Below, piece by piece: positions 7,085 through 50,982 of a stretch of 64,000 nt of DNA; the first letter of the stretch is position 1; each line of letters starts with the position of its first letter. The notes beneath the pieces are model-generated. The model was not told the DNA's origin, made no database searches, and was given only the letters and a program-made list of their open reading frames with translations. Where the stretch lies: positions 12,457,001 through 12,521,000 of the forward strand of contig JADLSH010000393.1 in the NCBI GenBank assembly GCA_016169945.1, in the 5' to 3' direction. Origin of the DNA: Trachythela sp. YZ-2020. Taxonomy: Eukaryota; Cnidaria; Anthozoa; Malacalcyonacea; Clavulariidae. The position numbers and the translations under genes are program-made.

Positions 7085-8080
7085 TTAATACTTGATTCGC
7101 CTTCCCTTTGAGGTTAATATTGCCTCAACGCGTTTAGGCATGCTCTCAATAGTACAAGCAAGAATGCTTACATCTAAATTGTAAAAACAACGCAAAACTC
7201 TATTCTTAAACTCTTCAAAACTTTCTTTCCTTATTTGTTTATCAATTGCTTCGTTTTCTAGACTCCTTTTAATAACATGAAATGCGTTCTCGATAGGGTT
7301 AAGATCGGGTGAGCGTGCTGGGATTTTACGAAATTCGCATTCGATTTCATTTAGGGCAGACATTGTCTTTTTACTCGTCTGAGATGGATCATTGTCCATT
7401 ACAAAAATGCGCTTTCTATAAGCTTTACGACCGGCCTTCGCGAAGCATAAATTAAAATGGCTCTTAATAAAGTTATAGAAGAAATGTCCGTCCATTTTTT
7501 CATATTGTTCTTTAAGTATGACACCTTTCCCATGTGCTGATTGCAACCACCAAATGAAGACGTCTCCCACCAGGTAAACTTTTGCTTCCCTTGGCTGTTA
7601 ATGTTAGTCCTTCGACTCTTGTTCTCCAAACACTTGTGAATGAAAGACACTGACCCCGTCAAGGTAAAACGCAACATGATTGGTAAAGAAATCTGGATTA
7701 TCGCGTAAAGTGTTTTTCATTTTTCGCGCGTACCCTTTTCGTGTTTTCAAATCCTTTTCATTCAGTAGACCTTTTTTTCTTGCCTGGCGCAATTTATAGC
7801 CATTCTTGTTTAAAAATCTTGATACAGTCCTTCTGCAATACTAGGTGGTGTCAAGTCCACTTTCTGCTATCAAATCCTTTACAGAAAAGCTCGGCGATTT
7901 ACGTCTTAGTTTATAAAATGTACGGAGCAGAATCCTCTCTGTCCTTTCAGTTAAAACCTTTGGGCGTCCTGCTTTTACTTTAACATATCCTGTATTCATT
8001 TTCCGATTGGAAACGTTGTAAGCCGTAGACTTTGAAACACCGTGCTTCCTAGAAAGATCTCTGTAACTTAAACTAACCAA
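7085..8080 (-). pseudogene. Tc1/mariner-family transposase, broken
   Basis: Read on the minus strand, an N-terminal helix-turn-helix region (YRDLSRKHGVSKSTAYNVSN) and an AGRPKVLTERTER linker are followed by the catalytic core: FYLDGVSVFH with the first Asp, VMDNDPSQTSKK with the second, and RSPDLNPIENAFHVIKRSLE with the Glu. There are 34 residues between the second Asp and the Glu (DD34E, as in Tc1). Lesions include an in-frame stop at about 7841, a frame break near 7620 and another near 7560, so no protein can be made. I did not find convincing terminal inverted repeats by eye. The family cuts and pastes into TA dinucleotides. Confidence 0.88.
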
Positions 8081-21711: not shown

Positions 21712-21720
21712 CATCGCGTG
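21712..21720 (+). repeat. Left target-site duplication CATCGCGTG
   Basis: Identical 9 bp to 30,603-30,611, directly abutting the outer ends of the long inverted repeats. Confidence 0.9.
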
Positions 21721-22470
21721 GGGTAGGGATAAAGGGCGGATACGGATGCGGATGGCGGATGCGGATGGCGGATGCGGATGGCGGATGCGGATGGCGGATG
21801 CGGATGGCGGATGCGGATGGCGGATGCGGATGGCGGATACGGATGCGGATGAGAAAATACGGATGAGAAAATGCGGATGGGGGATAAAACGCGGATGGGA
21901 AAATGCGGATGGGGGATAAAACGCGGATGGGAAAATGCGGATGGGGGATAAAACGCGGATGGGAAAATGCGGATGGCGGATAAAACGCGGATGATAGCAT
22001 AAATGTCGCGATAATAATAATTTATAATTTTTTAATTTAATAATAAATTATAATTTAATAATTTCTATTATACTGACAATTATTTGCGAAATTAAAGGAC
22101 AATGTCACCATATTTGACTAAAAATGCATTTTATTTACAGTCTGAACTGCAATTCTGAAAATAAACATCGTAAATGGATTTATTTATGACATAAGAGTAA
22201 TATTAAACGACTTTGGGCTTCCACATCAACATGTAAGACGACGTTTTCATACAAATTGACCTAAACTTGAAAAAGTGTCTGCCAACAATTAATTAAGATG
22301 GTATTTACAATCCATTTCAATCCTCGCATAATCTTAACCATCCGTACTTCTGTACACGCTTTTTGTGTTTGTTATTGCTTTATTTTGTAATTACAGTCAT
22401 TCTTTCTCAGTTTTGTACAAGTTTTGAGAGAGTCAGAATTCCTCAAAAATCGGTGACATTGCCCCTTTAA
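21721..22470 (+). repeat. Left terminal inverted repeat of the Mutator-like element
   Basis: From the outside inward: GGGTAGGGATAAAGGGCGGA; then tandem GCGGATGGCGGAT units (about 21,735-21,850); then four copies of a 31-bp unit containing GATAAAACGCGGATGGGAAA; then an AT-rich stretch; then a TTAA-flanked MITE that forms the inner end. Relative to the right arm it has about 155 extra bp at 22,205-22,360 and more of the short tandem units. Confidence 0.9.
22096..22466. mobile_element. TTAA-flanked MITE in the left TIR
   Basis: Inverted ends AGGACAATGTCACC and GGTGACATTGCCCCT are flanked by TTAA at 22,092-22,095 and 22,467-22,470, the duplication of piggyBac-type (or some Kolobok-type) elements. 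A shorter copy occupies the equivalent place in the right TIR. Confidence 0.75.
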
Positions 22471-23148
22471 AATGGGATGAAACTTGAAACTCTGGCAAAA
22501 TATTCATTTCAGAAAGATCTTAATTTTATTAAGAAATTGGGAGTCAAAATTCGCAATAGTTTGCTTGGAAATGAAGGAAATGCAAATTTTGTCGCGGTTT
22601 TTTTTAAGAATCAAACCGTGAAACCGGGGCAAACTATATATCGTTTTAAAAAGGAAATAATAGACAAGGAATTTTATTAGAAAGGGTGGTAACACTTTCG
22701 CAAATTTATATTTTGAAATAAGGTTGCGCACCCCCGCCAAATGTAAAAAAAAAACCCGCCTTAGAGAAAGAATTCCCAAAATACAACTCCCGGCCAAACT
22801 GAATTATGATTCTGCTGCAAATAAATTTTGCATTTCAATTTTATTCACGTGGATTAAACACATGTACAACAAATTTATAGCAGGTCGATTCTTGAGACTT
22901 GTAAATCGTTCATACATTATCAAGTAGATATGTCATCAGTGCTACTTTTACATCATTATAATAGTACATAATGTAAAATATTTCTTGTACAGAAACGTTA
23001 AACGAACTAACAAGTGAATAAAAAATGAAAAAACCTCCATGCATAAGTACATATATGTCCGATATAACGTCAAAATGTACATTGTGTATGCACAACATCT
23101 TATGAACGACAACGAAAGTCAAATGAAAGAATTACAGTTAGTTAATAT
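22471..23148. other. Non-coding interior of the Mutator-like element
   Basis: AT-rich sequence between the left TIR and the 3' end of the transposase. It probably serves as 3' untranslated region. No gene seen. Confidence 0.4.
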
Positions 23149-26100
23149 TTAAACCAAATTGCCGTAAGATTTGTAAATGCTCTGGGCGTAGATATTGCAT
23201 AAGCCAATTTGGAAGTAAGTTATTTGCGGATCAAAGTAAGGTTGCTTCATCCCGACGCAATTTCGATTAAGATGAAAGTAAACATTCCCCTCCTTGTACA
23301 TTATTTCATTGCTTTGATTTGCGCGAAAACCTCTTTTCATTCTCGACACGATGACTAGATCATATGGTGGACGAGCGATGAGACCATCCGGTTTTAATGC
23401 CTGGGAGCATCCATGACAGGAACGTACCATAGGTGAGCAAAACTGCAAGAGATATAAAATAAATTCTCCTACCTTCGGTGTTGGTGGTCCAGGGAAAGCC
23501 ACGGAGGGTGGTAGTGTTTGAGCAGACGGCACCTGTGAAGGTCAGAGAAAGCCATGGAGGGTGATAGTGTTGGAGATGATGGAATCTGTGAAGGTCCAGG
23601 AAAGCCACGGGGGTGGTAGTGTTCGAGCAGACGGCACTTGTGAAGGTCAGGAAAGCCACGGGAGGTGGTAGAACTGGAGATGATGGAATCTGGGAGGCTG
23701 TTGAGACTGATAATCCATGGAAGACAAATTACCGGCATTCCTATAAAACGGCCGCTCACTAATGGGTGTGACCTCCGGTTGGTTAGCAGTTCGACCCCCC
23801 TTGCGTCGAGCTGTGGCTGCTTTACCTCCCTTTTTCCAGTACCACTGCTGCTGTCGAAAGTCATCATAGCGGTTACGTTCATTCTCGCAGGACCTTTTCG
23901 CGAAGCCACTTTAAGTACTTTGCAGTGACACCTACTTTCTCTGCAACAGCAATAGCATGTGAACAGATCTTGGACGCTTTCCAGGCTGGACACTCTTCGC
24001 AAGTCACTTTCCCGTTTTTGCATACATCCACATAGTGCGGTCTTTTCGATGTCTGGCTTTCCACAATATAGGCGATCTTATCGGACGTGCCTGGAGCACA
24101 AACAATTGAACCTTCGCAATTCAAGAGTTTTTCAGCCTTTTCGGTCATGGAGGTTAAGACAGCCGGTTGGACAGATCTGATACTTTCGTCTCCCAGATCG
24201 ACTGAAAGTTGGACCCGCTTCGCTGGAGGAGGTACGTCTGAACATGCGTCATCTGTGTTATCACGACCTGTTGAGGATGCAATCTATATTTGCTTCATTC
24301 GACATTCTTTTCGCATGAAATCTTTTTAGATGCGCTTCCCGTTGTTTTGTATTCATCTTAAACCAATCACTTTGTGACACTTCAAAGGAGGAAAAAGCAG
24401 GTGCCAAACGGTAAGGACCCTTATTAATAACTGCGGAATCCACATCCTCTTTTTGTCGAGAGTAAGATGCCCATCTCACGGCAAAAATCTGCAATTTCGT
24501 TTGTCGAAAATTAACACCGCGTTTTATAAGAGCGTTAGCGGACTCGGGAATGTTCGTATAATATGGAATAGGGGATCACCCAAACCAGCATTCCTGTGAG
24601 CTTCCTTCAACATACTCTCATTCATCATTTCCACCTATAAATATGTGGAAGGTAATGTTAGACACCATGAACTAAAAGTACATGCATATAAACAAGCAGC
24701 TTTGCTTGCTACTACTGATGCTTCCTGGATGCCATATTAATTACTTTCAAAAAAACTTAGAACTTAAAATATAAAGCCAACCTTTTCGTTTATGTATTCA
24801 TAAAATATGGGTGTTTTCCTCTGGAAGGTACTGTTGTTCGTTGGAGTTCCACTTCTTTTAAAGAGAGTAGTTTTGCTCGAAGGTCGTCCTCGTCATCGGC
24901 GTCGAGAAGTCCTTTGGCGAAAAGCGGTATGTTATGTTAATAGATTTGAATTTGAAAACCAGCTGTAAAATTTCTGATTTTCATATACTAGTGCGCAGAT
25001 TTTCACACAAAAGGTTTCTCGCTTAGCTACAATGAATGAACGTAAAAATGTAAAATATTACAAACCTTTCTCCCAAGTGTCTCCGATTTTTCGTCCAAAT
25101 ATGTCAGACAGAATTCTTTCTGCGCTTGATCGGGTACGTTGGACAATCTCAATTGCGTTTTGCAATTATCTCTAAAATGGCTGAAACACCGTAGATGAAC
25201 GGCATACGGAAGTTGTACTTCATCGCTTTGAACAGTTCTTCTTCGCCATCGGTTCCGAAAGCTAAAATTTCTCGAATATCCTTATTGAGACCAACAATCT
25301 TGCTAAAAAGATAGTTATATGAATCGAAGGATTTTGTCTGGCTTAGAAGAATGGGACCAATCATGGTTTGGATGGTTACCACCAACTCGGTTGACAACTT
25401 TTAAGTTTGCGAAAGACGTAACTGTTGCATTGAATTTACCCAGGTTGAATGTTGGATCTGCTCCAAACACCGAGAAACTAACCGGATCTGTACAAAATGT
25501 GGCGACGTCATGAAACTGCCAATCAAACCCTAAGACACATCGCATTTCGGGAGCTCCTATAACTTCCCGTATGAACGGCTGTTCATCACGTTGCAGCTGT
25601 TGTCTCTGCACTGTTCCAAAGAATTAGCAGTGAATCTACATTGTCGTAGCTCTTTGGATTTGTATGTCCGCGCCTGTAGTATTTCGCCTGTGCACGATTT
25701 CGGGGTAGATCACTGATTGAGGAAGCCTTCGTTACGCCACCTTGCTCCTCTTGAGCATCCTGATATGCGTTCTTTGGAGTTTGAGACAAGGATTTACTTT
25801 TCAACGTGCTTACTGTGCTCTCCTTGATTCTTACATAAGGAGTAGAGTGTTTTCTCTTGCAGTTTCCATGCACCATGGGTTCGATTGAATGCTCTTTCCC
25901 GTCAAAGAGATACTGAATGAAAATCCATCTGGGGAAACCTGCCAAAAAATGAGTAATATTTCTGAGATTTTTCATGTCATTGATTGCTCGCGATGGAAAG
26001 ACGCTATAACATACATTCTATGCAAATGACAGTTTTTGAAACACCTTTTTACAAAATTTAGCTATGGGCGAAGAAACTATGAATTAAAATCAAAGTATCG

Positions 26101-26840
26101 TCAATCGGCTTCAGGAGTGTTTCCAGAATTTCGGCTGGACATTTAATTGTCGTTGTCCACTCGTATACCGGGAGAGATTCGTCCCCATTATAATGCTGTC
26201 CTGGAAGTCTAAACGCCATCAAAGAATATGCAACTGTCGGATTGACATCGACATAAGCATCGAGAGAAGAGTTTAGCTGGGGTGGGGGGTGGGGGTGTTG
26301 TTATCAGACCGACCAATTGCTGATAGAGACTTCACTATGACATATATGGAAAAAAAGTGGTGTAACTTTTCGAAGTATGCACATTTGGGGGGGGGGGGGG
26401 TGTTTCTTCATGCAAATGGGGATCCTCCCCTCAGAAATGTTTTGTATTGTTGAGCGCCCTAGACTTAATTTTGTGCAATTTCAATCTGATTTTTGCTCTT
26501 TTTAAGACAAATATTTGGTTCATAATCAAATTCGCCATATGCAAGACAAGTGCAAATAAAATGTGAGCTGTGTACTTACAAGGTTGCTACATTAGAGTTT
26601 GCAGTTTCCAACAGTAGTTGAAGCCGACAGTCTCCAAACATATTTTGGTGGTCCCCTAGTTTTGTGTTTGTTGCATCAGGCGAATTAATCCTTATATACA
26701 TCAGATACATTATACCGAATAACATGCAAGATTTACCTGTCGCTTTGTGTTGGTTTGTCAAAAGCAGGTGGTAAACTGTCATTGCTAATATCCGAATCCG
26801 ATGTCTTAGAACTATCAGACTCCACATCATCTGCAACCAT
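23149..26840 (-). pseudogene. MULE-type transposase with SWIM zinc finger, multi-exon and frameshifted
   Basis: Read on the minus strand. A possible first exon (ATG at 26,840, Asp/Ser-rich, donor CAG|GTAAAT at 26,736) is followed by an exon near 26,100-26,270 and then the core. The core has GADPTFNLGKFNATVTSF with the first catalytic Asp (about 25,458), SQTKSFDSYNYLFSKIVGL, and FGTDGEEELFKAMKY with the second Asp (about 25,250). In another frame follow AVHLRCFSHFRDNC, the HxxCxxH-like end of the MULE domain, and DIFGRKIGDTWEKG. An intron with donor at about 25,067 and acceptor at about 24,917 joins to LLDADDEDDLRAKLLSLKEV. Then come NIPESANALIKR, a SWIM finger CEECPAWKASKICSH (about 24,000) and a Cys-rich C-terminus (VRSCHGCSQALKP; NVYFHLNRNCVGMKQPYF) ending at 23,149. 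Frames break near 25,600, 25,370, 25,190, 24,560 and 23,880. It would cut TIRs and reinsert the element, making 9-bp duplications. Confidence 0.82.
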
Positions 26841-27080
26841 TTTTCTTGAGAGTTAGAAAGAGATACAAGTCAAATCTATACGATCAAATCAATTTCCGAA
26901 TGGTACGAGTATACGTGCCCATTATAGGCAAGAACTAAGATTACATTCATTTTATTGTGCATGGGGGAGCATTGATATATTTCATGAAACAATTTTTAAA
27001 TCATGATTTGTATATTTATCCCTGCCGAAGGAAGAATTAAAATTAAAGTCTGATTGTGTACGTATAGCGTATACTTACTT

Positions 27081-27416
27081 TTTATTGAAATCATTCAAAT
27101 CACTTTGGCAAGTATCGCTGTCGTCAGGCGAGTCGTCAATCGTTATCTATGTCGAAAGGAAAATGTTAAAATAGTACAAAAATTTCTTTTAGTACAAAAC
27201 TGTTCGAGCTGTAAAACGATGGACAATAACAGTCTTCCAGATGAGCTATAAGATTTAGTCTTATACGATTTATATGAATCTATAATCAGTCTAAGATATA
27301 AAGCTATATAATACACCACCTGTTCAACTTGATTTTCATGTAGTATTTCGATATCATTATCATCATCGAACTCATCAGATGTGTCATGATGCGGCCTCTG
27401 CACTTTGAAAGATTCA
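27081..27416 (-). other. Two acidic exons between kinase and transposase
   Basis: Minus-strand exon 27,320-27,416 lies between an AG acceptor and CAG|GTGGTG and reads ESFKVQRPHHDTSDEFDDDN... Exon 27,081-27,150 lies between CATAG and AAAAA|GTAAGT and reads ITIDDSPDDSDTCQSDLND. Both are rich in Asp, Ser and Glu, like the exon starting at 26,840, and could be successive exons of one transcript. Exact exon limits are inferred by eye. Confidence 0.45.
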
Positions 27417-27479
27417 CTAGATTGCGCACAGAAAACATAGAACTTGTTGAACAGAATGTTAAACATAGAACAGAATGTT

Positions 27480-28584
27480 TAAATTGAGGTTTCCATTTCC
27501 AACCATAAATCTTTTGTTTTCACCATCAGAGGAATTTCCAAGGATTTTTTTTTATTTGGAGCAATTCCCCCTGACCCTATTTTATTCAGATTTATGTGGT
27601 AATTCAGAACTTTTTTTAGAAATCCCCCTCCCCCCCCCGCCCTCCTTCCCCACAAAATGAAATATTGAGGTGGCTCGATGTGTAGTAAAACATCGTTTTG
27701 AGCAATAATATCATGAAGTTTAAGTGTATTACTGACATTACTGGCTGTTAAACCGAGATAATTTTTCAGCGTTTTCAATGGTTGTATTTCCAAAACAAGA
27801 TATTTAACAGACGAAAAAGATATGAACGAAAACGAGACGAAGAAAAGTTATGAATATATAATTAGGTGTTATAGTTTCAAACGGCTATGAATCGCTTGTA
27901 TTATGTTCTATACTACAAAAATCTAGCTTATATTACTAGTATTTGCATGCTGATTCTGAGGCTGGTCTAGTTTGATCTTGATATAAAATACACTGAAATT
28001 AGTAACCGACAAAATCATAGTCTCTACTAGTACAGTAGTACTCTAGATTCGGCGTCGGCAAAAATTATATTTTGACACCTTAGCAACACAGTCGAAATTA
28101 CCAAAACTGCCGGTTCTCCTTGAATTTTGAAGTTATGGACCAGGAAATATATCTATGAAGAGAGATTTTGACGACGATTTCGATGGTGGTATTGCGAAAA
28201 CAAGACTTTTCACAAAAGAAAAGTTATCAACGAAATTATATATTTAATTTACTTTCACGCAGGTTATGAATCCCGCGTATTATGATTTATGTTGTCTACT
28301 AGTCTACAGTCTACAGAAATTTAGCTGACGACTGAGCTGATATAAACTAGAAAATTCGAACGGTTGTACGTTTATCTTGATAGCGTACACTGAACCGAAG
28401 TTAAGAGCTTTCAAACTTATAGAGCACACGGGGGTCAAAAGACTATACCACCTGCTGGCAAAAAGTTAAATTTTTTTGAACAAAAATACCGCGCAGACTC
28501 TGACTACCTCGGGAGTAATACTGTATAATTATATAGTTTAAACTATATAGTTAGTCCTAGAATATACTAATACAATGGCTACGT
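27480..28584. other. Probable intronic or intergenic sequence inside the transposon
   Basis: AT-rich with a C-rich tract at about 27,625-27,650. No conserved protein recognised. Confidence 0.35.
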
Positions 28585-29677
28585 ACCTGCTTATTTGCTC
28601 CGTTGGCGTTGTTTTCAACTGACTGAAATTGATTTTTCAAATTAACTTGTAGACTGTCAAAACGTCCTTAGCACTTGGCCTTAATGATGGCTCGAATTCT
28701 GTGCACGCTTCGTAGATTTCCGCAAGACGCTTCCATTCATTACTCTGCTTTAATACATATTTCTCCTGGGCTATTGGCTTTGTTTCGCCTTCAAGAAATC
28801 TTCCAGGGATTTTCCAGCCTGCTTCATCTTTATATTGATCTGAAAAGGATGCTTCAAACCAGGATTTATTAAATTGAACAACACCATTCCATACGCCCAT
28901 ATATCTGCTTTCTTTAAATCTTCAACTGACGCGGCAGGCAACTGAAAATCGTTTACTAAAAGTTCCGGAGCCATGAAAACCGGAGTTCCCTGTTAACTTG
29001 ATTTGTCTTGGAATAAAGAATAGTGTTGGTGCGAATATCTTGCGATCTGCTTTCTCCAAAATCTGTAAGTTTGCAAATCAAAGGTGTCTTACGGCTGATT
29101 TCTTCAATTTTGGCAGGGTCGGTTAGCTGACAATAATGCTGGTTTGAGACTAAAATATTGGCAGGCTTTAAATCTCTGTGAGTAATGCCACTTTCGTGTA
29201 GGTATTGTAGTCCAGACGCGACGTCGCTAGCTGCCCGATAAAACACTTGTTTGTCTATGTTTGCGCACGAGTTTTTGTCCAAGTTCAAGAGGAGATCCGC
29301 CAAACAGTTCACTTTAGCCCTTAGACCGAACGGCTTAAAATCAAAATATACATATTCTAGCAGTAGCGCGTACTCGTCGTCACAGATCCCTTTAAACTCT
29401 ACAATGTTACGATGAACAAGATTGTTCAAAAGTTTGGCCTCCTTTAACATTTTTCTTCGTGTTTCTTCTTCGTCTCCTGCGCCAAATAGCTTCTTAACAA
29501 CGACTTTTGGTGACACGACGGAATTTCAGCAGTAAAATTGTTGAAAAGCCCTTGTGCTATTTCATCTTTATTAATGAAATCAGCAAAATGGAAGCATGGT
29601 AGCCCTTCAACTTCAAGTGTCGGAGAAGTTGTTGAAAAATCATCAGTTTGAGAAACTAAGTTGCCAAATATCGACAT
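28585..29677 (-). pseudogene. Serine/threonine-type protein kinase carried by the Mutator-like element
   Basis: From the first in-frame ATG (29,677) the minus strand reads MSIFGNLVSQTDD and CFHFADFINKDEI. The nucleotide-binding Gly loop looks degenerate (AQGLFNNFTA). After a frame change near 29,520 come VVVKKL (ATP-anchoring Lys), EAKLLNNLVHRNIVEF, LLLEYVYFDF, GITHRDLKPANILVSN (catalytic loop HRDLKPAN) and LICKLTDFGESRS (DFG). A frame change near 28,994 leads into FMAPELL (APE motif) and DIWAYGMVLFNLINPG. A third near 28,795 gives the C-lobe end, YEACTEFEPSLRPSAKDVL. A short downstream exon ends in CAG|GTACGT at about 28,585. All catalytic motifs survive, but three frameshifts break the frame. 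It lies in the same orientation as the transposase and about 0.4 kb from the right TIR, which would have to hold its promoter. Confidence 0.85.
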
Positions 29678-30057
29678 CTTCCCAACTTTGAAATCACAGT
29701 CAGATCTTGATCTCCGTTGCAATTCCCATGCATTTACATATTGCCCAGACACGAGCAACACAATGTAGCAAATTTGTTACATTGAATGTCAGTTGTGACA
29801 TTGAATGTAGCTAATTAAGTTGTGACACGAATGTTGATATGTCTATTATTGTTGCATGCGTAAGTCCTGAGATGTGGTAAATTTATAGGTCTGGTGAGAA
29901 TTATTTGATCGACATTTGGCGCATAAAAGCGCTTGAATATATTTGGGGTTTGGAAATAATTGTAGGTAGAATTCATACAAAAGAAGTGGCAATCCTAGTT
30001 GAATTGATACTGCAGTACTAGTACTTGAAAAATCCTTAAATTGTTATTACAACCGAC

Positions 30058-30602
30058 TTAAAGGGCAATGTCACCGATTTTTGAGGAATTCTGACTCTCT
30101 CAAAACTTGTACAAAACTGAGAAAGAATGGCTGTAATTACAAAATAAAGCAATAACAAACACAAAAAGCGTATTACTCTTATGTCATACATAAATCCATT
30201 TACGATGTTTATTTTCAGAATTACAGTTCACACTGTAAATAAAATGCATTTTTAGTCAAATATGGGTGACATTGCCTCTTTAATTTCGCAAATAATTGTC
30301 AGTATAATAGAAATTATTAAATTATAATTTATTATTAAATTAAAAAATTATAAATTATTATTATCGCGACATTTATGCTATCATCCGCGTTTTATCCCCC
30401 ATCCGCATTTTCCCATCCGCGTTTTATCCCCCATCCGCATTTTCCCATCCGCGTTTTATCCCCCATCCGCCTTTTCCCATCCGCGTTTTATCCCCCATCC
30501 GCATTTTCTCATCCGTATTTTCTCATCCGCATCCGTATCCGCCATCCGCATCCGCCATCCGCATCCGCCATCCGCATCCGTATCCGCCCTTTATCCCTAC
30601 CC
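30058..30602 (-). repeat. Right terminal inverted repeat of the Mutator-like element
   Basis: Reverse complement of the left TIR. Its satellite part (about 30,378-30,600) has CATCCGCGTTTTATCCCCC units followed by GCATCCGCCATCC units ending in TTTATCCCTACCC. The AT-rich segment and TTAA-flanked MITE match the left arm closely except for the missing 155 bp. Similarity between the arms stops exactly at the inner TTAA. Confidence 0.9.
30062..30279. mobile_element. TTAA-flanked MITE in the right TIR (shorter copy)
   Basis: Ends AGGGCAATGTCACC and GGTGACATTGCCTCT lie between TTAA at 30,058-30,061 and 30,280-30,283. The sequence is nearly the same as the left copy apart from an internal deletion. 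Confidence 0.75.
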
Positions 30603-30611
30603 CATCGCGTG
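30603..30611 (+). repeat. Right target-site duplication CATCGCGTG
   Basis: Perfect 9-bp match to 21,712-21,720. Confidence 0.9.
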
Positions 30612-30635: not shown

Positions 30636-31271
30636 CAGTCCTCGCAATTTTGATAAATCTTCGGCGGCAAAAAATTGCCGCCGATATTTCGAAGTTCGGC
30701 GGCAGTTCGGCGGCAATTTTTTTGTCTCTTATAAAATGACACTGACTTTGACAGAGAACTGAATTATTTTATAGTATTCTCTTGACTCTACTGATTAAAA
30801 GTGTTTGATATTCGAAGAAACGTTGTTTCACACACAATAACATTGAGACCAGCTATCAATCTTTTAGTTTTAACTTTGTTACACTACGGACGTTGTTCTA
30901 AAATTGTTGCACATGGACGAAACCAAACCCGTCGTTACACGTGGCCAGCGGTGTGTATGTTTGGTGGAACTTGAAGTTACATGAAGTATATCAGAACTAC
31001 TTTCGATGTATTTTAAAATAAGCCACAAAAATAAAAGTGTTCACAAAAGAATAGTTCACTTTCCCGAATTATTTTCTGTGAAGTGAACTACAAATAATTA
31101 AAATCATAATCATATGTTCATACTTGGAAGAATTAATCGAATTGAGAAGGCAGTGAAGCATCATCAGTGACACAAAAATTCGTCGGCGGCAAAAAATTGC
31201 CGCCGATAATTTAATCTTCGGCGGCATTATCGGCGGCAATTGCCTTTTGCCGCCGAAAATTGCGAGGACTG
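30636..31271. mobile_element. 636-bp MITE with CGGCGGC hairpin ends
   Basis: Inverted ends CAGTCCTCGCAATTTT are followed on both sides by clusters of TTCGGCGGCAAAA and its complement, so each end can fold on itself. ACTATG occurs directly on both sides (30,630-30,635 and 31,272-31,277), suggesting a 6-bp duplication. The superfamily is unclear. No coding capacity. Confidence 0.78.
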
Positions 31272-40973: not shown

Positions 40974-41824
40974 ATGTAGAAGACAACATATGATGCTTTC
41001 AGATATTCTTATATTTCAGTTGTTGCATTTGGAATTATCGGTAACATTTTGGTTATAATCTCCATTTTAAGCCAAAGGAAATTGTTGAAGAACAACTACT
41101 ACTTTCTTGTTTTACATCTTGCAATCTGTGATCTGGGATGTTTGCTTGTAATATGCTTGAACGTCATTGCCAAGCATTTCTGTTATTCCGCCATACCTTG
41201 TCCTGTCGTGCTTATAGATTCCTTCTTTGGAGTCGCAGGAGTATACATGATGTTGATCATTTCATTCCTTCGTTATCGCGCTGCTGTACATCCTTTAAAA
41301 CCTGCCATCAGTCGACGGAAATGGAAAGTCGTTTGTGGTACATTATTGGTTTGATTGCAGGTTATGGAACAATTATTCCGGCATGTTTCATGCAGACGAA
41401 CGATGTCTCGGCTGTTTACAGTAAATTTTATTTTCTCTACATAGTATCCTGCGGTTACTTTTTCCCAACAATATTTATGGCGGTAGCTTATTATAAGATA
41501 GGTCGAGCACTGGTCAAACAAAACGAACACATGAAGCGCATATGTTCAAATGCGGTAAGAAGCAAATATGTTAAAAATCGACGAACTTTTCTTGTTTGTC
41601 TCAGTACCGTTCTTTGTTACGGAATAAGTATTTTGCCTAATTCTGTGAGGTTTGCATGGTACATCGTTGCATATCCACCAATAAAATATGATTGGGTTTT
41701 CCATTTTGGAATCATTCTGCGAGCTGCTGGATCAAATTCAGTAAATCCTCTTATATATGGAATATTGGACAAAAAGTTGCTCACATTTTGGAAACTTTGC
41801 CTCACGAGGAAACGAAGACCATAA
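40974..41824 (+). pseudogene. Class A GPCR copy C
   Basis: The second codon is changed to a stop (ATG TAG where the others have ATG GAG), and a 7-bp deletion near 41,338 shifts the frame between TM3 and TM4. Otherwise the sequence is near-identical to copies D to F, with NPLIYGILDKKL and the short ...TRKRRP tail. It lacks the Glu-Gln pair before TYR-Pro-Pro in the third extracellular loop, as in copy F. A downstream ATG could start inside TM1 but would still meet the frameshift, so no full receptor can be made. Confidence 0.88.
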
Positions 41825-41936
41825 AGAAAATCAGGCAGTGCTTGAGTAGCAAGATGGAAAAAGATGACATCTAAATAGATTGTCCAACCAGGATGAGATT
41901 TGTATCCTCTTTATTTTGTAGAACAGCCAGAAACAG

Positions 41937-41982
41937 GAAATAATGGATATGCCACATGAGTATGTGGTATATCCATTATTTC
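41937..41982. repeat. 3' hairpin of GPCR unit C
   Basis: GAAATAATGGATATGCCACA pairs with the complementary TGTGG-TATATCCATTATTTC across a short loop, about 110 bp after the GPCR stop. Confidence 0.85.
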
Positions 41983-43961
41983 TTGTTACTGACAACTGGA
42001 GGAATTTAGATTTAGCTTTAAAAAACATGACAGTAGAAATGCTTACATTCTACTTTTGACCACTTGATTGATTTATTGATTGATTGATTGATCCATTGAC
42101 ACATTGATTTATCTATTGATTTTATTGATAATTATTTAAGATAATCTATTTGATTTAGAGAGGTCATACTATTGAAGTCAACATTATACCTGGAGTGCTT
42201 CTTTCATTAAAAGAGACCAATCCGAGCTTAATTCCAAGATCGAAATGCTTTAAAGCTTACTAAAATTGACGTATTGACAACTTAGTCTTTAAAGAAGTTT
42301 GGAATTTGTGCATTTTTGGTTGATCTCAGCTCATGACCGTGGCAACGGCAATCCGTTTCAGGGGGCTGGATATAAGTACCAGGGTTTATCTTCATATTTT
42401 GAGAGCTCCACGTTTTTCTGAGTTCAATTGTTCCTGCATTATTTTAAGATATTCAATATAGCATGTTTAATAGAATGACAGAGATCTTAAATTGTATACA
42501 TAAGATATATTCAAATTTTGTAGCGTTTCACATTTGATAACAAGTAAACATATGACTAGTCACTTCACTTTACTTTTTATATGCGGCATTTTCTTCCCCC
42601 TAGTTTTAAATTGAGTTTAAATATTTGCAAAAGTTTGTCTTGCTTTCACGGACTGAAAATAATTGAATGCCTAATTAGTAGATGTATTATTTATGCGTGA
42701 ATATACTCGAGCTAATTTGCTTGCGGAGGTTTGATGCAGTCTTTGAGTCATGTGTGTAGATTGTATTTTTGTGAAGGCAGCCAATTTTCGAATAGAGCTA
42801 GACTACGCTGGCGCAGCCGTGGGTGTCTGTGGTCTATGAGATATCCTTTAAATTTCTGTCACTCTGTCACTGAATTTGTAGTTAGCCCCTGAAACCATGC
42901 TGGTCGCTCCATGGCTCCCTAACTTCTGCAGCCTAACCTCGCGAAACATACATACAATACTGAATGGAAGTTGATGTTAATAGTGTGGAATAGAACTATC
43001 TAAAGTTTTGACGGTCAGTTCATTTGGTAATATGCAAGAAGCCTTTTACAATGAACGTGATACACCTGCCTAGTTTACAGCTTACAAGTTATTAATATCC
43101 AACAGATTCAAGAGTATGGGTTGACAAACCGTCAAAACTCGAGGATATTGCTCTCAAATGAAAAACTTCTATAGTCTCCTCCGCAGGCATCTCTATAGGG
43201 GTGACCTGTGTCAGGGTGATTTCGGTATGCTCAAACAAGATCCTTGCCCGAACATTAATGATTCGTTTTTAGAGAATCCATCTACACTATAGTTCAATAT
43301 GGTCAAAAGTGTGGTAGAAATTTTTAATGGTTAGGTCATCTTATAACATCTAACAAGAGTTTAGCGAACGTAGTACACCTGTTTAGTTTGCAAAAATACA
43401 CGTTATTAATATTCAAAGACTATTCTAGAATACGAGCCAATGTTTGTTATCTCTAGATTAAGGGTGTTGTTATTCACAAAAGTAAATTTCTGTGCAATTT
43501 CGGTTAAAATAATATTTAAATTATTCTCTTTTGCCTCTCTCTTGGCTTAGCTTCCCGAACGAAGATCAAAATAGGTTGTCCACGTTGCAAGTTCGCTATT
43601 AGAGATTATTCTATATTCAGAAGGAATTATACAATAGTTTTTGTAAGTTTAAAACAGATACAACCGTAACTTAATTTGATATCTTAATTCCTTCTTTTGT
43701 TTTCATGCCAGACGGTCTGACGCTCTTCTTTGCCAATATTTCATACTTTTTTAATGTTTGCCAATGCTTATGACATTCTATCCATGGACACTTGTTATGT
43801 GTAGGGTTCTTATTGGCGAAATACATCTGGTATTGCCTGATATATCGTACTAAAATAAATACATTTGCCATTTGTTTTGTTTTCCAAGAGAGCTACCAGT
43901 TTGATCTTGCATTTTATATAGTAGGAACGAAAGTCACAGTTCAAATTTCTTGAAAGAAACA

Positions 43962-44849
43962 ATGGAGAAGACAACATATGATGCTTTCAGATATTCTTAT
44001 ATTTCAGTTGTTGCATTTGGAATTCTCGGTAACATTTTGGTTATAATCTCCATTTCAAGCCAAAGGAAATTGTTGAAGAACAACTACTACTTTCTTGTTT
44101 TACATCTTGCAATCTGTGATCTGGGATGTTTGCTTGTAATATGCTTGAACGTCATTGCCAAGCATTTCCGTTATTCCGCCATACCTTGTCCTGTCGTGCT
44201 TATAGATTCCTTCTTTGGAGTCGCAGGAGTATACATGATGTTGATCATTTCATTCCTTCGTTATCGCGCTGCTGTACATCCTTTAAAACCTGCCATCAGT
44301 CGACGGAAATGGAGAGTCGTTTGTGGTTTGGGGTACATTATTGGTTTGATTGCAGGTTATGGAACAATTATTCCGGCATGTTTCATGCAGACGAACGATG
44401 TCTCGGCTGTTTACAGTAAATTTTATTTTGTCTACATAGTATCCTGCGGTTACTTTTTCCCAACAATATTTATGGCGGTAGCTTATTATAAGATAGGTCG
44501 AGCACTGGTCAAACAAAACGAACACATGAAGCGCATATGTTCAAATGCGGTAAGAAGCAAATATGTTAAAAATCGACGAACTTTTCTTGTTTGTCTCAGT
44601 ACCGTTCTTTGTTACGGAATAAGTATTTTGCCTAATTCTGTGAGGTTTGCATGGTACATCGTTGCTGAGCAATATCCACCAATAAAATATGATTGGGTTT
44701 TCCATTTTGGAATCATTCTGCGAGCTGCTGGATCAAATTCAGTAAATCCTCTTATATATGGAATATTGGACAAAAAGTTGCTCACATTTTGGAAACTTTG
44801 CCTCACGAGGAAACGAAGACCACAAGAAAATCAGGCAGTGCTTGAGTAG
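43962..44849 (+). CDS. Class A (rhodopsin-like) GPCR, copy D, intact
   Basis: 295 residues, single exon. I chose the ATG at 43,962 (MEKTTYD), conserved in all copies. Seven membrane segments are visible: TM1 about 12-33 with the GN pair (G23 N24); TM2 about 43-66 with Asp53 in LAICD; TM3 about 78-100 ending in LRY (Arg100), so the acidic residue of the DRY motif is Leu; TM4 about 118-140; TM5 about 154-178 with FFP; TM6 about 206-230 with CYGISILP in place of CWxP; TM7 with NPLIY (262-266). Cys76 and Cys140 could form the usual loop disulfide. N- and C-termini are short. It should be a plasma-membrane receptor coupling to G proteins; the ligand cannot be predicted. A TATA-like TTTTATATA lies about 45 bp upstream. 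Only D has the longer tail ending QENQAVLE. Confidence 0.92.
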   Translation: MEKTTYDAFRYSYISVVAFGILGNILVIISISSQRKLLKNNYYFLVLHLAICDLGCLLVICLNVIAKHFRYSAIPCPVVLIDSFFGVAGVYMMLIISFLRYRAAVHPLKPAISRRKWRVVCGLGYIIGLIAGYGTIIPACFMQTNDVSAVYSKFYFVYIVSCGYFFPTIFMAVAYYKIGRALVKQNEHMKRICSNAVRSKYVKNRRTFLVCLSTVLCYGISILPNSVRFAWYIVAEQYPPIKYDWVFHFGIILRAAGSNSVNPLIYGILDKKLLTFWKLCLTRKRRPQENQAVLE

Positions 44850-44936
44850 CAAGATGGAAAAAGATGACATCTAAATAGATTGTCCAACCAGGATGAGATT
44901 TGTATCCTCTTTATTTTGTAGAACAGCCAGAAACAG

Positions 44937-44983
44937 GAAATAATGGATATGCCACATGAGTCATGTGGTATATCCATTATTTC
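44937..44983. repeat. 3' hairpin of GPCR unit D
   Basis: Perfect or near-perfect 22-bp stem GAAATAATGGATATGCCACA.. with ..TGTGGTATATCCATTATTTC, about 90 bp after the stop codon. Confidence 0.88.
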
Positions 44984-46963
44984 TTGTTACTGACAACTGG
45001 AGGAATTTAGATTTAGCTTTAAAAAACATGACAGTAGAAATGCTTGCATTCTACTTTTGACCACTTGATTGATTTATTGATTGATTGATTGATCCATTGA
45101 CACATTGATTTATCTATTGATTTTATTGATAATTATTTAAGATAATCTATTTGATTTAGAGAGGTCATACTATTGAACTCAACATTATACCTGGAGTGCT
45201 TCTTTCATTAAAAGAGTCAAATCCGAGCTTAATTCCAAGATCGAAATGCTTTAAAGCTTACTAAAATTGACGTATTGACAACTTAGTCTTTAAAGAAGTT
45301 TGGAATTTGTGCATTTTTGGTTGATCTCAGCTCATGACCGTGGCAACGGCAATCCGTTTTAGGGGGCTGGATATAAGTACCAGGGTTTATCTTCATTTTT
45401 TGAGAGCTCCACGTCTTTTTGAGTTCAATTGTTCCTGCATTATTTTAAGAATATTCAATATAGCATGTTTAATAGAATGACAGAGATCTTAAATTGTATA
45501 CATAAGATATATTCAAATTTTGTAGCGTTTCACATTTGATAACAAGTAAACATATGACTAGTCACTTCACTTTACTTTTTATATGCGGCATTTTCTTCCC
45601 CCTAGTTTTAAATTGAGTTTAAATATTTGCAAAAGTTTGTCTTGCTTTCACGGACTGAAAATAATTGAATGCCTAATTAGTAGATGTATTATTTATGCGT
45701 GAATATACTCGAGCTAATTTGCTTGCGGAGGTTTGATGCAGTCTTTGAGTCATGTGTGTAGATTGTATTTTTGTGAAGGCAGCCAATTTTCGAATAGAGC
45801 TAGACTACGCTGGCGCAGCCGTGGGTGTCTGTGGTCTATGAGATATCCTTTAAATTTCTGTCACTCTGTCACTGAATTTGTAGTTAGCCCCTGAAACCAT
45901 GCTGGTCGCTCCATGGCTCCCTAACTTCTGCAGCCTAACCTCGCGAAACATACATACAATACTGAATGGAAGTTGATGTTAATAGTGTGGAATAGAACTA
46001 TCTAAAGTTTTGACGGTCAGTTCATTTGGTAATATGCAAGAAGCCTTTTACAATGAACGTGATACACCTGCCTAGTTTACAGCTTACAAGTTATTAATAT
46101 CCAACAAATTCAAGAGTATGGGTTGACAAACCGTCAAAACTCGAGGATATTGCTCTCAAATGAAAAACTTCTATAGTCTCCTCCGCAGGCATCTCTATAG
46201 GAGTGACCTGTGTCAGGATGATTTCGATATGCTCAATCAAGATCCTTGCCCGAACATGAATGATTCGTTTTTAGAAAATCCATCTACACTATAGTTCAAT
46301 ATGGTCAAAAGTGTGGTAGAAATTTTTAATGGTTAGGTCATCTTATAACATCTAACAAGAGTTTAACGAACGTGGTACACCTGTTTAGTTTGTAAAAATA
46401 CACGTTATTAATATTCAATGACTATTCTAGAATACGAGCCAATGTTTGTTATCTCTAGATTAAGGGTGTTGTTATTCACAAAAGTAAATTTCTGTGCAAT
46501 TTCGGTTAAAATAATATTTAAATTATTCTCTTTTGCCTCTCTCTTGGCTTAGCTTCCCGAACGAAGATCAAAATAGGTTGTCCACGTTGCAAGTTCGCTA
46601 TTAGAGATTATTCTATATTCAGAAGGAATTATACAATAGTTTTTGTAAGTTTAAAACAGATACAACCGTAACTTAATTTGATATCTTAATTCCTTCTTTT
46701 GTTTTCATGCCAGACGGTCTGACGCTCTTCTTTGCCAATATTTCATACTTTTTTAATGTTTGCCAATGCTTATGACATTCTATCCATGGACACTTGTTAT
46801 GTGTAGGGTTCTTATTGGCGAAATACATCTGGTATTGCCTGATATATCGTACTAAAATAAATACATTTGCCATTTGTTTTGTTTTCCAAGAGAGCTACCA
46901 GTTTGATCTTGCATTTTATATAGTAGGAACGAAAGTCACAGTTCAAATTTCTTGAAAGAAACA
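44984..46963. repeat. Spacer of unit D to E
   Basis: Non-coding apart from the conserved antisense frame at 46,673-46,873. Contains (GATT)n at about 45,065-45,110 and GAGCTAGACTACGCTGGCGC at about 45,797. Confidence 0.8.
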
Positions 46964-47827
46964 ATGGAGAAGACAACATATGATGCTTTCAGATATTCTT
47001 ATATTTCAGTTGTTGCATTTGGAATTCTCGGTAACATTTTGGTTATAATCTCCATTTCAAGCCAAAGGAAATTGTTGAAGAACAACTACTACTTTCTTGT
47101 TTTACATCTTGCAATCTGTGATCTGGGATGTTTGCTTGTAATATGCTTGAACGTCATTGCCAAGCATTTCCGTTATTCCGCCATACCTTGTCCTGTCGTG
47201 CTTATAGATTCCTTCTTTGGAGTCGCAGGAGTATACATGATGTTGATCATTTCATTCCTTCGTTATCGCGCTGCTGTACATCCTTTAAAACCTGCCATCA
47301 GTCGACGGAAATGGAGAGTCGTTTGTGGTTTGGGGTACATTATTGGTTTGATTGCAGGTTATGGAACAATTATTCCGGCATGTTTCATGCAGACGAACGA
47401 TGTCTCGGCTGTTTACAGTAAATTTTATTTTGTCTACATAGTATCCTGCGGTTACTTTTTCCCAACAATATTTATGGCGGTAGCTTATTATAAGATAGGT
47501 CGAGCACTGGTCAAACAAAACGAACACATGAAGCGCATATGTTCAAATGCGGTAAGAAGCAAATATGTTAAAAATCGACGAACTTTTCTTGTTTGTCTCA
47601 GTACCGTTCTTTGTTACGGAATAAGTATTTTGCCTAATTCTGTGAGGTTTGCATGGTACATCGTTGCTGAGCAATATCCACCAATAAAATATGATTGGGT
47701 TTTCCATTTTGGAATCATTCTGCGAGCTGCTGGATCAAATTCAGTAAATCCTCTTATATATGGAATATTGGACAAAAAGTTGCTCACATTTTGGAAACTT
47801 TGCCTCACGAGGAAACGAAGACCATAA
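46964..47827 (+). CDS. Class A GPCR, copy E, intact
   Basis: 287 residues. The protein is identical to copy D through residue 287, including the AEQYPP loop between TM6 and TM7. One extra base after the Arg-Pro codons (CCATAAAG versus CCACAAG) brings the stop forward, so the tail ends ...LTRKRRP without QENQAVLE. TM motifs are as in copy D (GN, LAICD, LRY, CYGISILP, NPLIY). The shorter tail removes eight residues after the basic stretch and may alter trafficking or arrestin contact. The DNA around it is also nearly the same as in D. Confidence 0.92.
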   Translation: MEKTTYDAFRYSYISVVAFGILGNILVIISISSQRKLLKNNYYFLVLHLAICDLGCLLVICLNVIAKHFRYSAIPCPVVLIDSFFGVAGVYMMLIISFLRYRAAVHPLKPAISRRKWRVVCGLGYIIGLIAGYGTIIPACFMQTNDVSAVYSKFYFVYIVSCGYFFPTIFMAVAYYKIGRALVKQNEHMKRICSNAVRSKYVKNRRTFLVCLSTVLCYGISILPNSVRFAWYIVAEQYPPIKYDWVFHFGIILRAAGSNSVNPLIYGILDKKLLTFWKLCLTRKRRP

Positions 47828-47940
47828 AGAAAATCAGGCAGTGCTTGAGTAGCAAGATGGAAAAAGATGACATCTAAATAGATTGTCCAACCAGGATGAG
47901 ATTTGTATCTTCTTTATTTTGTAGAACAGCCAAGAAACAG

Positions 47941-47987
47941 GAAATAATGGATATGCCACATGAGTCATGTGGTATATCCATTATTTC
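47941..47987. repeat. 3' hairpin of GPCR unit E
   Basis: Same GAAATAATGGATATGCCACA stem and complementary arm as in unit D. Confidence 0.88.
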
Positions 47988-49965
47988 TTGTTACTGACAA
48001 CTGGAGGAATTTAGATTTAGCTTTAAAAAACATGACAGTAGAAATGCTTACATTCTACTTTTGACCACTTGATTGATTTATTGATTGATTGATTGATCCA
48101 TTGACACATTGATTTATCTATTGATTTTATTGATAATTATTTAAGATAATCTATTTGATTTAGAGAGGTCATACTATTGAAGTCAACATTATACCTGGAG
48201 TGCTTCTTTCATTAAAAGAGACCAATCCGAGCTTAATTCCAAGATCGAAATGCTTTAAAGCTTACTAAAATTGACGTATTGACAACTTAGTCTTTAAAGA
48301 AGTTTGGAATTTGTGCATTTTTGGTTGATCTCAGCTCATGACCGTGGCAACGACAATCCGTTTCAGGGGGCTGGATATAAGTACCAGGGTTTATCTTCAT
48401 ATTTTGAGAGCTCCACGTCTTTCTGAGTTCAATTGTTCCTGCATTATTTTAAGATATTCAATATAGCATGTTTAATAGAATGACAGAGATCTTACATTGT
48501 ATACATAAGATATATTCAAATTTTGTAGCGTTTCACATTTGATAACAAGTAAACATATGACTAGTCACTTCACTTTACTTTTTATATGCGGCATTTTCTT
48601 CCCCCTAGTTTTAAATTGAGTTCAAATATTTGCAAAAGTTTGTCTTGCTTTCACGGACTGAAAATAATTGAATGCCTAATTAGTAGATGTATTATTTATG
48701 CGTGAATATACTCGAGCTAATTTGCTTGCGGAGGTTTGATGCAGTCTTTGAGTCATGTGTGTAGATTGTATTTTTGTGAAGGCAGCCAATTTTCGAATAG
48801 AGCTAGACTACGCTGGCGCAGCCGTGGGTGTCTGTGGTCTATGAGATATCCTTTAAATTTCGGTCACTCTGTCACTGAATTTGTAGTTAGCCCCTGAAAC
48901 CATGCTGGTCGCTCCATGGCTCCCTAACCTCTGCAGCCTAACCTCGCGAAACATACATACAATACTGAATGGAAGTTGATGTTAATAGTGTGGAATAGAA
49001 CTATCTAAAGTTTTGACGGTCAGTTCATTTGGTAATATGCAAGAAGCCTTTTACAATGAACGTGATACACCTGCCTAGTTTACAGCTTACAAGTTATTAA
49101 TATCCAACAGATTCAAGAGTATGGGTTGACAAACCGTCAAAACTCGAGGATATTGCTCTCAAATGAAAAACTTCTATAGTCTCCTCCGCAGGCATCTCTA
49201 TAGGTGACCTGTGTCAGGGTGATTTCGGTATGCTCAAACAAGATCCTTGCCCGAACATTAATGATTCGTTTTTAGAGAATCCATCTACACTATAGTTCAA
49301 TATGGTCAAAAGTGTGGTAGAAATTTTTAATGGTTAGGTCATCTTATAACATCTAACAAGAGTTTAGCGAACGTAGTACACCTGTTTAGTTTGCAAAAAT
49401 ACACGTTATTAATATTCAAAGACTATTCTAGAATACGAGCCAATGTTTGTTATCTCTAGATTAAGGGTGTTGTTATTCACAAAAATAAATTTCTGTGCAA
49501 TTTCGGTTAAAATAATATTTTAGATTATTCTCTTTTGCCTCTCTCTTGGCTTAGCTTCCCGAACGAAGATCAAAATAGGTTGTCCACGTTGCAAGTTCGC
49601 TATTAGAGATTATTCTATATTCAGAAGGAATTATACAATAGTTTTTGTAAGTTTAAAACAGATACAACCGTAACTTAATTTGATATCTTAATTCCTTCTT
49701 TTGTTTTCATGCCAGACGGTCTGACGCTCTTCTTTGCCAATATTTCATACTTTTTTAATGTTTGCCAATGCTTATGACATTCTATCCATGGACACTTGTT
49801 ATGTGTAGGGTTCTTATTGGCGAAATACATCTGGTATTGCCTGATATATCGTACTAAAATAAATACATTTGCCATTTGTTTTGTTTTCCAAGAGAGCTAC
49901 CAGTTTGATCTTGCATTTTATATAGTAGGAACGAAAGTCACAGTTCAAATTTCTTGAAAGAAACA

Positions 49966-50823
49966 ATGGAGAAGACAACATATGATGCTTTCAGATATTC
50001 TTATATTTCAGTTGTTGCATTTGGAATTCTCGGTAACATTTTGGTTATAATCTCCATTTCAAGCCAAAGGAAATTGTTGAAGAACAACTACTACTTTCTT
50101 GTTTTACATCTTGCAATCTGTGATCTGGGATGTTTGCTTGTAATATGCTTGAACGTCATTGCCAAGCATTTCCGTTATTCCGCCATACCTTGTCCTGTCG
50201 TGCTTATAGATTCCTTCTTTGGAGTCGCAGGAGTATACATGATGTTGATCATTTCATTCCTTCGTTATCGCGCTGCTGTACATCCTTTAAAACCTGCCAT
50301 CAGTCGACGGAAATGGAGAGTCGTTTGTGGTTTGGGGTACATTATTGGTTTGATTGCAGGTTATGGAACAATTATTCCGGCATGTTTCATGCAGACGAAC
50401 GATGTCTCGGCTGTTTACAGTAAATTTTATTTTGTCTACATAGTATCCTGCGGTTACTTTTTCCCAACAATATTTATGGCGGTAGCTTATTATAAGATAG
50501 GTCGAGCACTGGTCAAACAAAACGAACACATGAAGCGCATATGTTCAAATGCGGTAAGAAGCAAATATGTTAAAAATCGACGAACTTTTCTTGTTTGTCT
50601 CAGTACCGTTCTTTGTTACGGAATAAGTATTTTGCCTAATTCTGTGAGGTTTGCATGGTACATCGTTGCATATCCACCAATAAAATATGATTGGGTTTTC
50701 CATTTTGGAATCATTCTGCGAGCTGCTGGATCAAATTCAGTAAATCCTCTTATATATGGAATATTGGACAAAAAGTTGCTCACATTTTGGAAACTTTGTC
50801 TCACGAGGAAACGAAGACCATAA
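49966..50823 (+). CDS. Class A GPCR, copy F, intact
   Basis: 285 residues. Same receptor as copies D and E, with a 6-bp in-frame deletion that removes Glu-Gln from the third extracellular loop (VAYPPIK rather than VAEQYPPIK) and the short ...KRRP tail. Both features are shared with pseudogene C, about 9 kb upstream. All seven membrane segments and the GN, LAICD, LRY and NPLIY landmarks are kept. Because the third extracellular loop often contacts ligand, this is the one difference between the intact copies likely to matter at the binding face, though that is inference. Confidence 0.92.
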   Translation: MEKTTYDAFRYSYISVVAFGILGNILVIISISSQRKLLKNNYYFLVLHLAICDLGCLLVICLNVIAKHFRYSAIPCPVVLIDSFFGVAGVYMMLIISFLRYRAAVHPLKPAISRRKWRVVCGLGYIIGLIAGYGTIIPACFMQTNDVSAVYSKFYFVYIVSCGYFFPTIFMAVAYYKIGRALVKQNEHMKRICSNAVRSKYVKNRRTFLVCLSTVLCYGISILPNSVRFAWYIVAYPPIKYDWVFHFGIILRAAGSNSVNPLIYGILDKKLLTFWKLCLTRKRRP

Positions 50824-50935
50824 AGAAAATCAGGCAGTGCTTGAGTAGCAAGATGGAAAAAGATGACATCTAAATAGATTGTCCAACCAGGATGAGATTT
50901 GTATCTTCTTTATTTTGTAGAACAGCCAGAAACAG

Positions 50936-50982
50936 GAAATAATGGATATGCCACATGAGTCATGTGGTATATCCATTATTTC
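50936..50982. repeat. 3' hairpin of GPCR unit F
   Basis: Same stem sequence and position as in units D and E. Confidence 0.88.

Follow-up and report, generated by a model that had tools for sequence, protein, structure and literature searches.

A Mutator-like transposon carrying a protein kinase together with its MULE/SWIM transposase in the cnidarian Trachythela sp. YZ-2020

A Mutator-like element (MULE) in which a protein kinase accompanies the transposase occupies positions 21,721-30,602 of a 64,000-nucleotide stretch of DNA from the cnidarian Trachythela sp. YZ-2020 (GenBank assembly GCA_016169945.1, contig JADLSH010000393.1, positions 12,457,001 to 12,521,000 of the forward strand), referred to here as the window. 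An earlier note, made from the sequence alone, had described an element with a kinase and a MULE/SWIM transposase, and this was confirmed: both parts lie on the minus strand, with the kinase exon first. Our best explanation, which we hold to be very probable, is that the window element is an internally deleted member of an old MULE lineage possessing a kinase-transposase, and that the kinase serves transposition. The kinase appears to be a functional component rather than a chance passenger, since it is paired with the transposase again in further copies and in relatives that have diverged.

Structure of the element

The 9-bp duplication that the earlier note had placed around the element is real, CATCGCGTG being identical at 21,712-21,720 and 30,603-30,611, and the matching outer ends were likewise found: the same 15-bp end stands at both termini of 21,721-30,602 and, allowing up to 3 mismatches, at no third site in the window. 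The long inverted arms measure 747 bp on the left and 543 bp on the right and are near-identical in reverse complement apart from extras in the left arm, whose surplus amounts to about 154 bp plus some of the 13-bp subterminal units. The length of 8.9 kb, which had been taken for that of the full element, had to be dropped. Long copies usually measure about 10.2 kb, and the window copy is a deletion form from which about 1.4 kb of the other long copies is absent. With its 9-bp duplications, deletion derivatives and near-identical copies, the family has a structure of the cut-and-paste type. The parts of the window copy are as follows (C-numbers, here and below, designate contigs or loci of the source assembly).

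21712..21720, no strand: left target-site duplication, CATCGCGTG, identical to the right copy
21721..22467, plus strand: left terminal inverted arm, containing subterminal repeats of 13 bp and 32 bp
23149..23465, minus strand: C-terminal cysteine-rich stretch (FCSPMVRSCHGC...), matching C55 (48%), C101 (56%) and protein P0122 (29%)
23957..24001, minus strand: SWIM-type zinc finger, CEECPAWKASKICSH
24261..24575, minus strand: transposase segment, presumed catalytic E at 24545-24543 within TNIPESANALIK
25027..25980, minus strand: core of the MULE transposase, spread over several frames, with presumed catalytic D residues at 25458-25456 (DPTFN) and 25250-25248 (TDGEE)
26087..26088, no strand: point of the gap of about 1.4 kb relative to other long copies, the DNA-binding region included
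26088..26276, minus strand: first part of the open stretch that leads into the DNA-binding region in other copies, the remainder being absent here
26737..26844, minus strand: predicted acidic linker exon 3, phase-compatible GT-AG pairs
27079..27146, minus strand: predicted acidic linker exon 2, phase-compatible GT-AG pairs
27320..27416, minus strand: predicted acidic linker exon 1, phase-compatible GT-AG pairs
28587..29677, minus strand: protein kinase exon (VVVKK, HRDLKPAN, DFG, APE), joined pieces matching Pkinase, predicted donor at 28587
30060..30602, minus strand: right terminal inverted arm
30603..30611, no strand: right target-site duplication, identical to the left copy

The kinase motifs VVVKK, HRDLKPAN, DFG and APE are present as described, in the same orientation as the transposase, and the joined kinase pieces of the window match Pkinase at 2e-33; several one-base frame breaks interrupt the exon in the assembly. 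To judge from its sequence the kinase bears the residues of an active kinase (the VAIK-type lysine, HRD, DFG and APE), and among 139 listed proteins of at least 300 amino acids HRD is present in 133, DFG in 137, APE in 136 and V-x-x-K in 115. In the database relative P0001 the kinase is open over 399 amino acids and is 93% identical to the query. Within the best 60 of its 1600 matches to the PDB, RIPK1 ranks first (2.6e-14) and is followed by chains of the NT-3 growth factor receptor, MAPK6, ULK1 and IRAK4. By its closest solved relatives the kinase would be TKL-like, of the RIPK/IRAK-like kind, several other kinases scoring close. The closest relative with a name is P0150 of the octocoral Paramuricea clavata, whose kinase is 83% identical over 191 columns.

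The MULE core and SWIM finger of the transposase were borne out as well. The joined window pieces cover positions 4-98 of the 99 of the MULE profile PF10551 (E=0.0036, 18.1 bits, cutoff 27.6), and the SWIM profile PF04434 scores 0.05 in the joined pieces and 0.0066, with 16.4 bits, for the piece alone (cutoff 19.6). In relatives the MULE core reaches 2e-5 in Pfam, still below cutoff, and P0122 and P0123 have no Pfam MULE match; the SWIM finger of P0148 is above cutoff at 29.5 bits. The D, D, E and CxxH positions of the window transposase align with those of relatives, and it is this alignment, together with coverage of the full profile, on which we base the MULE assignment. Taking as marks of a MULE a DDE core, target-site duplications of 8-11 bp, terminal inverted repeats (TIRs) and a SWIM or other zinc finger, the element is assigned to the MULE superfamily by its core, duplications, TIRs and zinc finger, with MULE and SWIM Pfam matches that lie below cutoff. 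Four repeats of 52-53 bp are found at 23486-23695, within a proline-rich linker of the transposase C-terminus.

Copies in the source genome

The source assembly (578 Mb in 396 contigs) was searched for further copies, and second copies with the same ends, as the earlier note had envisaged, are numerous: there are 77 exact 15-bp ends genome-wide, 39 forward and 38 reverse, while a reversed control pattern of the same end gave 5 forward and 0 reverse. With 77 exact ends in the genome, a one-off odd insertion could be dismissed. Twenty-eight copies were read, the window copy included, and 27 of them have two exact ends; end-bearing places outside the 28 lie on C138, C237, C248:85,994-117,024, C334:5,765,321, C334:7,030,575, C357, C382, C384 and C390. 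Of the 27 two-ended copies, 21 are flanked by duplications of 9-10 bp, perfect at 17 and never with more than one mismatch (no shuffled control).

The kinase lies between the TIRs, accompanied by MULE core and SWIM finger in one order and orientation, in 16 of the 28 copies; 15 of these long copies stand between two exact ends and one, the second copy at C267, has one exact end. The 12 short copies have internal deletions and all retain kinase sequence: six keep the first part of the kinase and two most of it, both groups without transposase, and the other four keep the start of the kinase and the end of the transposase. A TIR pair around the transposase alone, or a full-length copy lacking the kinase, either of which the earlier note had named as evidence for a chance passenger, occurs nowhere among the 28. 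Searching the genome with the kinase gave at least 106 matches, from which 56 loci were listed, one match per locus. All 31 loci of at least 57% identity, C19 and C346 apart, are within 11 kb of an exact 15-bp end; the remaining 25, which include C19 and C346 (61-62%), yielded none (0/25). At C189:1622495-1642126 and C267:3839278-3858920 pairs of kinase-MULE copies adjoin in opposite orientation, and the three two-ended copies among these side-by-side pairs have no target-site duplication.

When 13 long copies were compared with one reference copy, 12 lay at 2.3-4.7 substitutions per kb, and the range for all 13 was 2.3-8.4. In an alignment totalling 114,207 bases there are 324 substitutions, 391 one-base gaps and 229 longer gaps. 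Of the 391 one-base gaps, 312 fall in runs of at least three identical bases; such runs account for 24% of the reference sequence. For comparison, four receptor-gene repeats of the window, aligned in six pairings over 16,892 bases, show 258 substitutions, 27 one-base gaps, seven of them in runs of at least three, and 21 longer gaps. Because the one-base gaps of the element are concentrated in runs of identical bases, many of its frame breaks are probably consensus errors of the assembly in near-identical repeats. The near-identity of the copies suggests a young, multi-copy family that has moved recently.

Diverged relatives and the link between kinase and transposase

Downstream of the kinase, on the same strand, a MULE core was found at five of six diverged loci (C19, C346, C55, C101 and C62:132602), whose kinases are 40-62% identical to the query. 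At C19 the kinase, which is 61% identical, is followed by a further domain, next by an acidic stretch and a DNA-binding region, and then by a MULE core that shares 57-77% identity with that of the window. At C346, C101, C62:132,602 and C130 the stretch read comprised about 4.5-5 kb downstream of the kinase. The core at C346 is 96.5% identical to that of C19, C62:132,602 has MULE and SWIM segments closest to P0122, and MULE, SWIM and C-terminal matches are contained at C101 in a frame of 887 codons and at C55 in one of 817 codons that is still open where the stretch ends. At C346:950000-955000 a second DNA-binding region and MULE start lie about 3.6 kb past the first, a partial tandem duplication.

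Long open stretches such as those at C101 (887 codons) and C55 (817 codons), and database names that label some relatives host kinases, would suit a different reading, in which the host uses domesticated kinase-transposase genes and the copies are remnants. The window family, however, is recent and repetitive, as the 12 of 13 long copies at 2.3-4.7 substitutions per kb attest, and most two-ended copies have duplications, so that we give domestication hardly any credence.

The kinase and the transposase also occur in single chains of other animals. A protein search with the C19 relative, in which the 8,000 candidates sharing most words were scored, yielded 73 proteins, and 20 picked from these were tested for modules. 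Kinase and MULE core stand in one chain in 12 of the 20, namely 11 proteins of 1,045-1,670 amino acids and P0150 of Paramuricea clavata, a partial protein of 774 amino acids. Five of the 20 have MULE without kinase, and three (P0124, P0140 and P0155) have kinase without a MULE match, P0124 stopping just past a DPTFN motif. P0148, from the sea cucumber Holothuria leucospilota, has Pkinase and SWIM, with MULE below cutoff. Three of the fused chains come from contigs so short (P0129, 4.7 kb; P0143, 5.3 kb; P0146, 3.9 kb) that they are probably unspliced.

A comparison of kinase and transposase trees, which the earlier note had proposed, revealed one main split common to both unrooted trees: the same nine fused proteins, joined in the kinase tree by P0124, are set against the window family, C19, P0122 and P0123. 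Support for this split is 100/100 for MULE and 99/95 for the kinase, the inner branching being poorly resolved. Between one copy of the window family and C19, pN is 0.235 and pS 0.887 for the kinase, and pN is 0.200 and pS 0.817 for the MULE core; with saturated pS and one pair each, these values point to strong constraint on both parts and to nothing finer.

It might be supposed that a MULE captured a host kinase gene by chance, in the manner of a Pack-MULE, and that the kinase is an amplified passenger. Mutator-like elements are described as picking up fragments of host genes (PMC6446971), and the genome contains a large kinase family, with at least 106 matches. Against this stand the recurrence of the pairing among the copies and at five of the six diverged loci, the single chains of other animals, the main split that the two trees have in common, and the similar constraint on both parts between the window family and C19; a chance passenger was accordingly judged very unlikely. 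The element does resemble Pack-MULEs in having gene-like sequence between Mutator-like arms. Pack-MULEs are characterised by loss of the transposase and carriage of gene fragments (PMC6446971), whereas 16 of the 28 copies hold both transposase core and kinase and the pairing recurs in diverged relatives. Eight of the 12 deletion forms have no transposase, yet they are deletions of the same element, and a Pack-MULE was dismissed.

The earlier note had left three options for the kinase: a captured host gene, a second gene of the element, or the N-terminal part of a kinase-transposase product. The last is favoured, on the strength of phase-compatible introns between kinase and linker and of single chains elsewhere that hold both parts; the other two fare less well. 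The splicing then proposed corresponds to a predicted phase-compatible GT-AG pair at 28,587|27,416, followed by predicted pairs at 27,320|27,146 and 27,079|26,844. Through donor 28,587 the kinase exon is predicted to join the three linker exons in phase, giving one open acidic stretch. Six of the splice-site strings were sought in the 16 long copies: those of the first donor, first acceptor and fourth donor recur exactly in all 16, that of the second acceptor in 15, that of the third acceptor in 14 and that of the third donor in 13. In copy C267c the kinase runs to its end in the frame of the donor.

Kinase and transposase could instead be two genes of one element with separate promoters, which we regard as unlikely. 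About 4-5 kb separate the open stretch with the kinase from that with the MULE core, both in the window family and at C55; P0001, like many relatives of about 600 amino acids, ends ahead of any transposase; and the predicted splicing was traced to the linker and not into the transposase. On the other side, phase-compatible introns connect the kinase with the linker, and P0129, P0143 and P0146 (1,045-1,324 amino acids, on short contigs and probably unspliced) hold both parts.

Several observations tell against the best explanation. The predicted splicing was traced from the kinase as far as the acidic linker; in the window copy a stop stands just ahead of the linker in its frame, and the transposase frames are broken by one-base breaks and miss the DNA-binding segment. 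In this assembly the kinase frame of every one of the 16 long copies is interrupted by at least one break or stop, and relative to P0001 the kinases of all 28 copies have 46 one-base losses, six gains and three stops. The duplication is absent from six of the 27 two-ended copies. The 10 kb read at C19 and the downstream stretch read at C346 gave no SWIM match, and the 4.5 kb read at C130 gave no MULE. P0158-P0162 are MULE-only chains, which may be single exons, on the side of the MULE tree where the window family lies, and kinase-less MULE relatives may exist in the source genome, where searching was by kinase and end. Our confidence in the best explanation is tempered in particular by the untraced join of linker and transposase and by these MULE-only chains.

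According to our preferred explanation, full-length members of about 10.2 kb would encode one spliced protein, consisting of a TKL-like kinase, an acidic linker and a DNA-binding region, followed by a transposase with DDE MULE core, SWIM finger and cysteine-rich C-terminus. The transposase end would recognise and bind the subterminal repeats in the long arms, and cleavage and insertion by the transposase would be staggered by 9 bp. Phosphorylation by the kinase may be directed at the transposase or, at the transposition complex, at host proteins such as repair, cell-cycle or silencing factors. We infer the single polypeptide in the source species, the kinase activity, its substrate and its role from sequence; for the role in transposition the grounds are the active-kinase residues and the occurrence with a transposase in diverged relatives.

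The further domain seen at C19 follows the kinase over about 220 amino acids, has the pattern Q...NDGTNAC...DTH, and is present also at C55 and in 11 of the 12 fused chains (not P0150); a DGTNAC-type pattern occurs in 84 of the 139 listed proteins of at least 300 amino acids. Across 42 aligned rows N89, C91, F93 and R256 are invariant, and Q49, D219, T220 and H221 are at least 90% conserved. In a predicted model (pLDDT 90.3, pTM 0.84) C91 begins a helix and H221 directly follows a strand, which, with an oxyanion Gln, we take to be the arrangement of a papain-like peptidase, and the domain is putatively a papain-like cysteine peptidase. Pfam gave one chance-level match for five proteins, a profile search of the PDB nothing above chance (none better than E 0.7), and PHROGs nothing above chance for three proteins. 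With four relatives as queries against six copies, including that of the window, the domain was not found in the window family. These queries matched the window family over the kinase part only, save for one match of P0071 to the window, at 25% identity, that extends past the kinase.

We lean slightly towards a broader reading as well, namely an old animal MULE lineage whose transposase unites several enzymes in one chain, a RIPK/IRAK-like kinase, a new papain-like peptidase and the DDE/SWIM part, and which would control transposition or blunt host repair or silencing. In this broader reading the peptidase has been lost in the window family, and most members probably use proteolysis or deubiquitination besides phosphorylation. 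If it is true, transposon genes would make up much of the expansion of kinases seen in corals and related animals.

Known elements and other sequences of the window

Proteins of the Ovarian Tumour (OTU) type are cysteine peptidases. The cnidarian MULE MuDR-6_HM (group 14, PMC6446971) resembles the present element in having an added domain, in its case OTU, no kinase being listed for it in the part of the survey concerned. The present element resembles the Mutator-like elements grouped by Dupeyron et al. 2019 in its 9-bp duplications, inverted arms, MULE core and SWIM finger. The additional components listed in the passages of the survey's table considered here are OTU, SET, PHD, FAR1, FLYWCH, CCHC, PMD and open reading frames of no known identity (PMC6446971); the kinase sets the present element apart from those groups, the word "kinase" occurring 0 times in the survey's main text. 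Phantom, which comprises animal MULEs with duplications of 8-10 bp and, in some, FLYWCH or SWIM, has no kinase listed in the corresponding passages (PMC6446971). In a literature search by title and start of abstract, with most subscription journals, preprints and Repbase outside its scope, no kinase-bearing Mutator-like element was found; an unremarked entry for such an element in the Repbase library is possible. Relative to known MULEs, the kinase and, in most relatives, the peptidase-like domain appear to be new.

A transposon with a signalling enzyme of its own would offer a direct route to how movement is coupled to the state of the host cell, and near-identical copies, suggestive of recent movement, make the system open to experiment. 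Annotation is affected as well: the sea cucumber protein named "TAO1" (P0148) and the octocoral "SPK-1" (P0150) contain transposase segments, and other kinases called in cnidarian genomes may do so likewise.

Directly to the right of the element, a palindromic repeated stretch around TCGGCGGCAAAAAATTGCCGCCGA occurs at 30655-30704 and 31177-31257. Rfam and tRNA scans of the 64-kb window gave no match. Other traces of mobile elements in the window comprise a transposase fragment on the minus strand at 7088-7597 (DDE_3, 1e-12), presumably Tc1/mariner; an endonuclease at 54848-55753 (9e-14) and a reverse transcriptase at 61599-62111 (2e-10), both retrotransposon fragments with further retrotransposon-type frames nearby; and a 401-amino-acid open frame at 57366-58568, which resembles GIY-YIG weakly (E 0.0005, below cutoff) and which we assume may belong to a Penelope-like element. 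The receptor-gene repeats form a tandem array at 41132-53480 of units of about 3 kb, every one of which carries a receptor-like gene (the unit at 43905 matches 7tm_1 at 2.6e-22); pairwise comparison of four units gives 14-76 substitutions per 2.6-3.0 kb.

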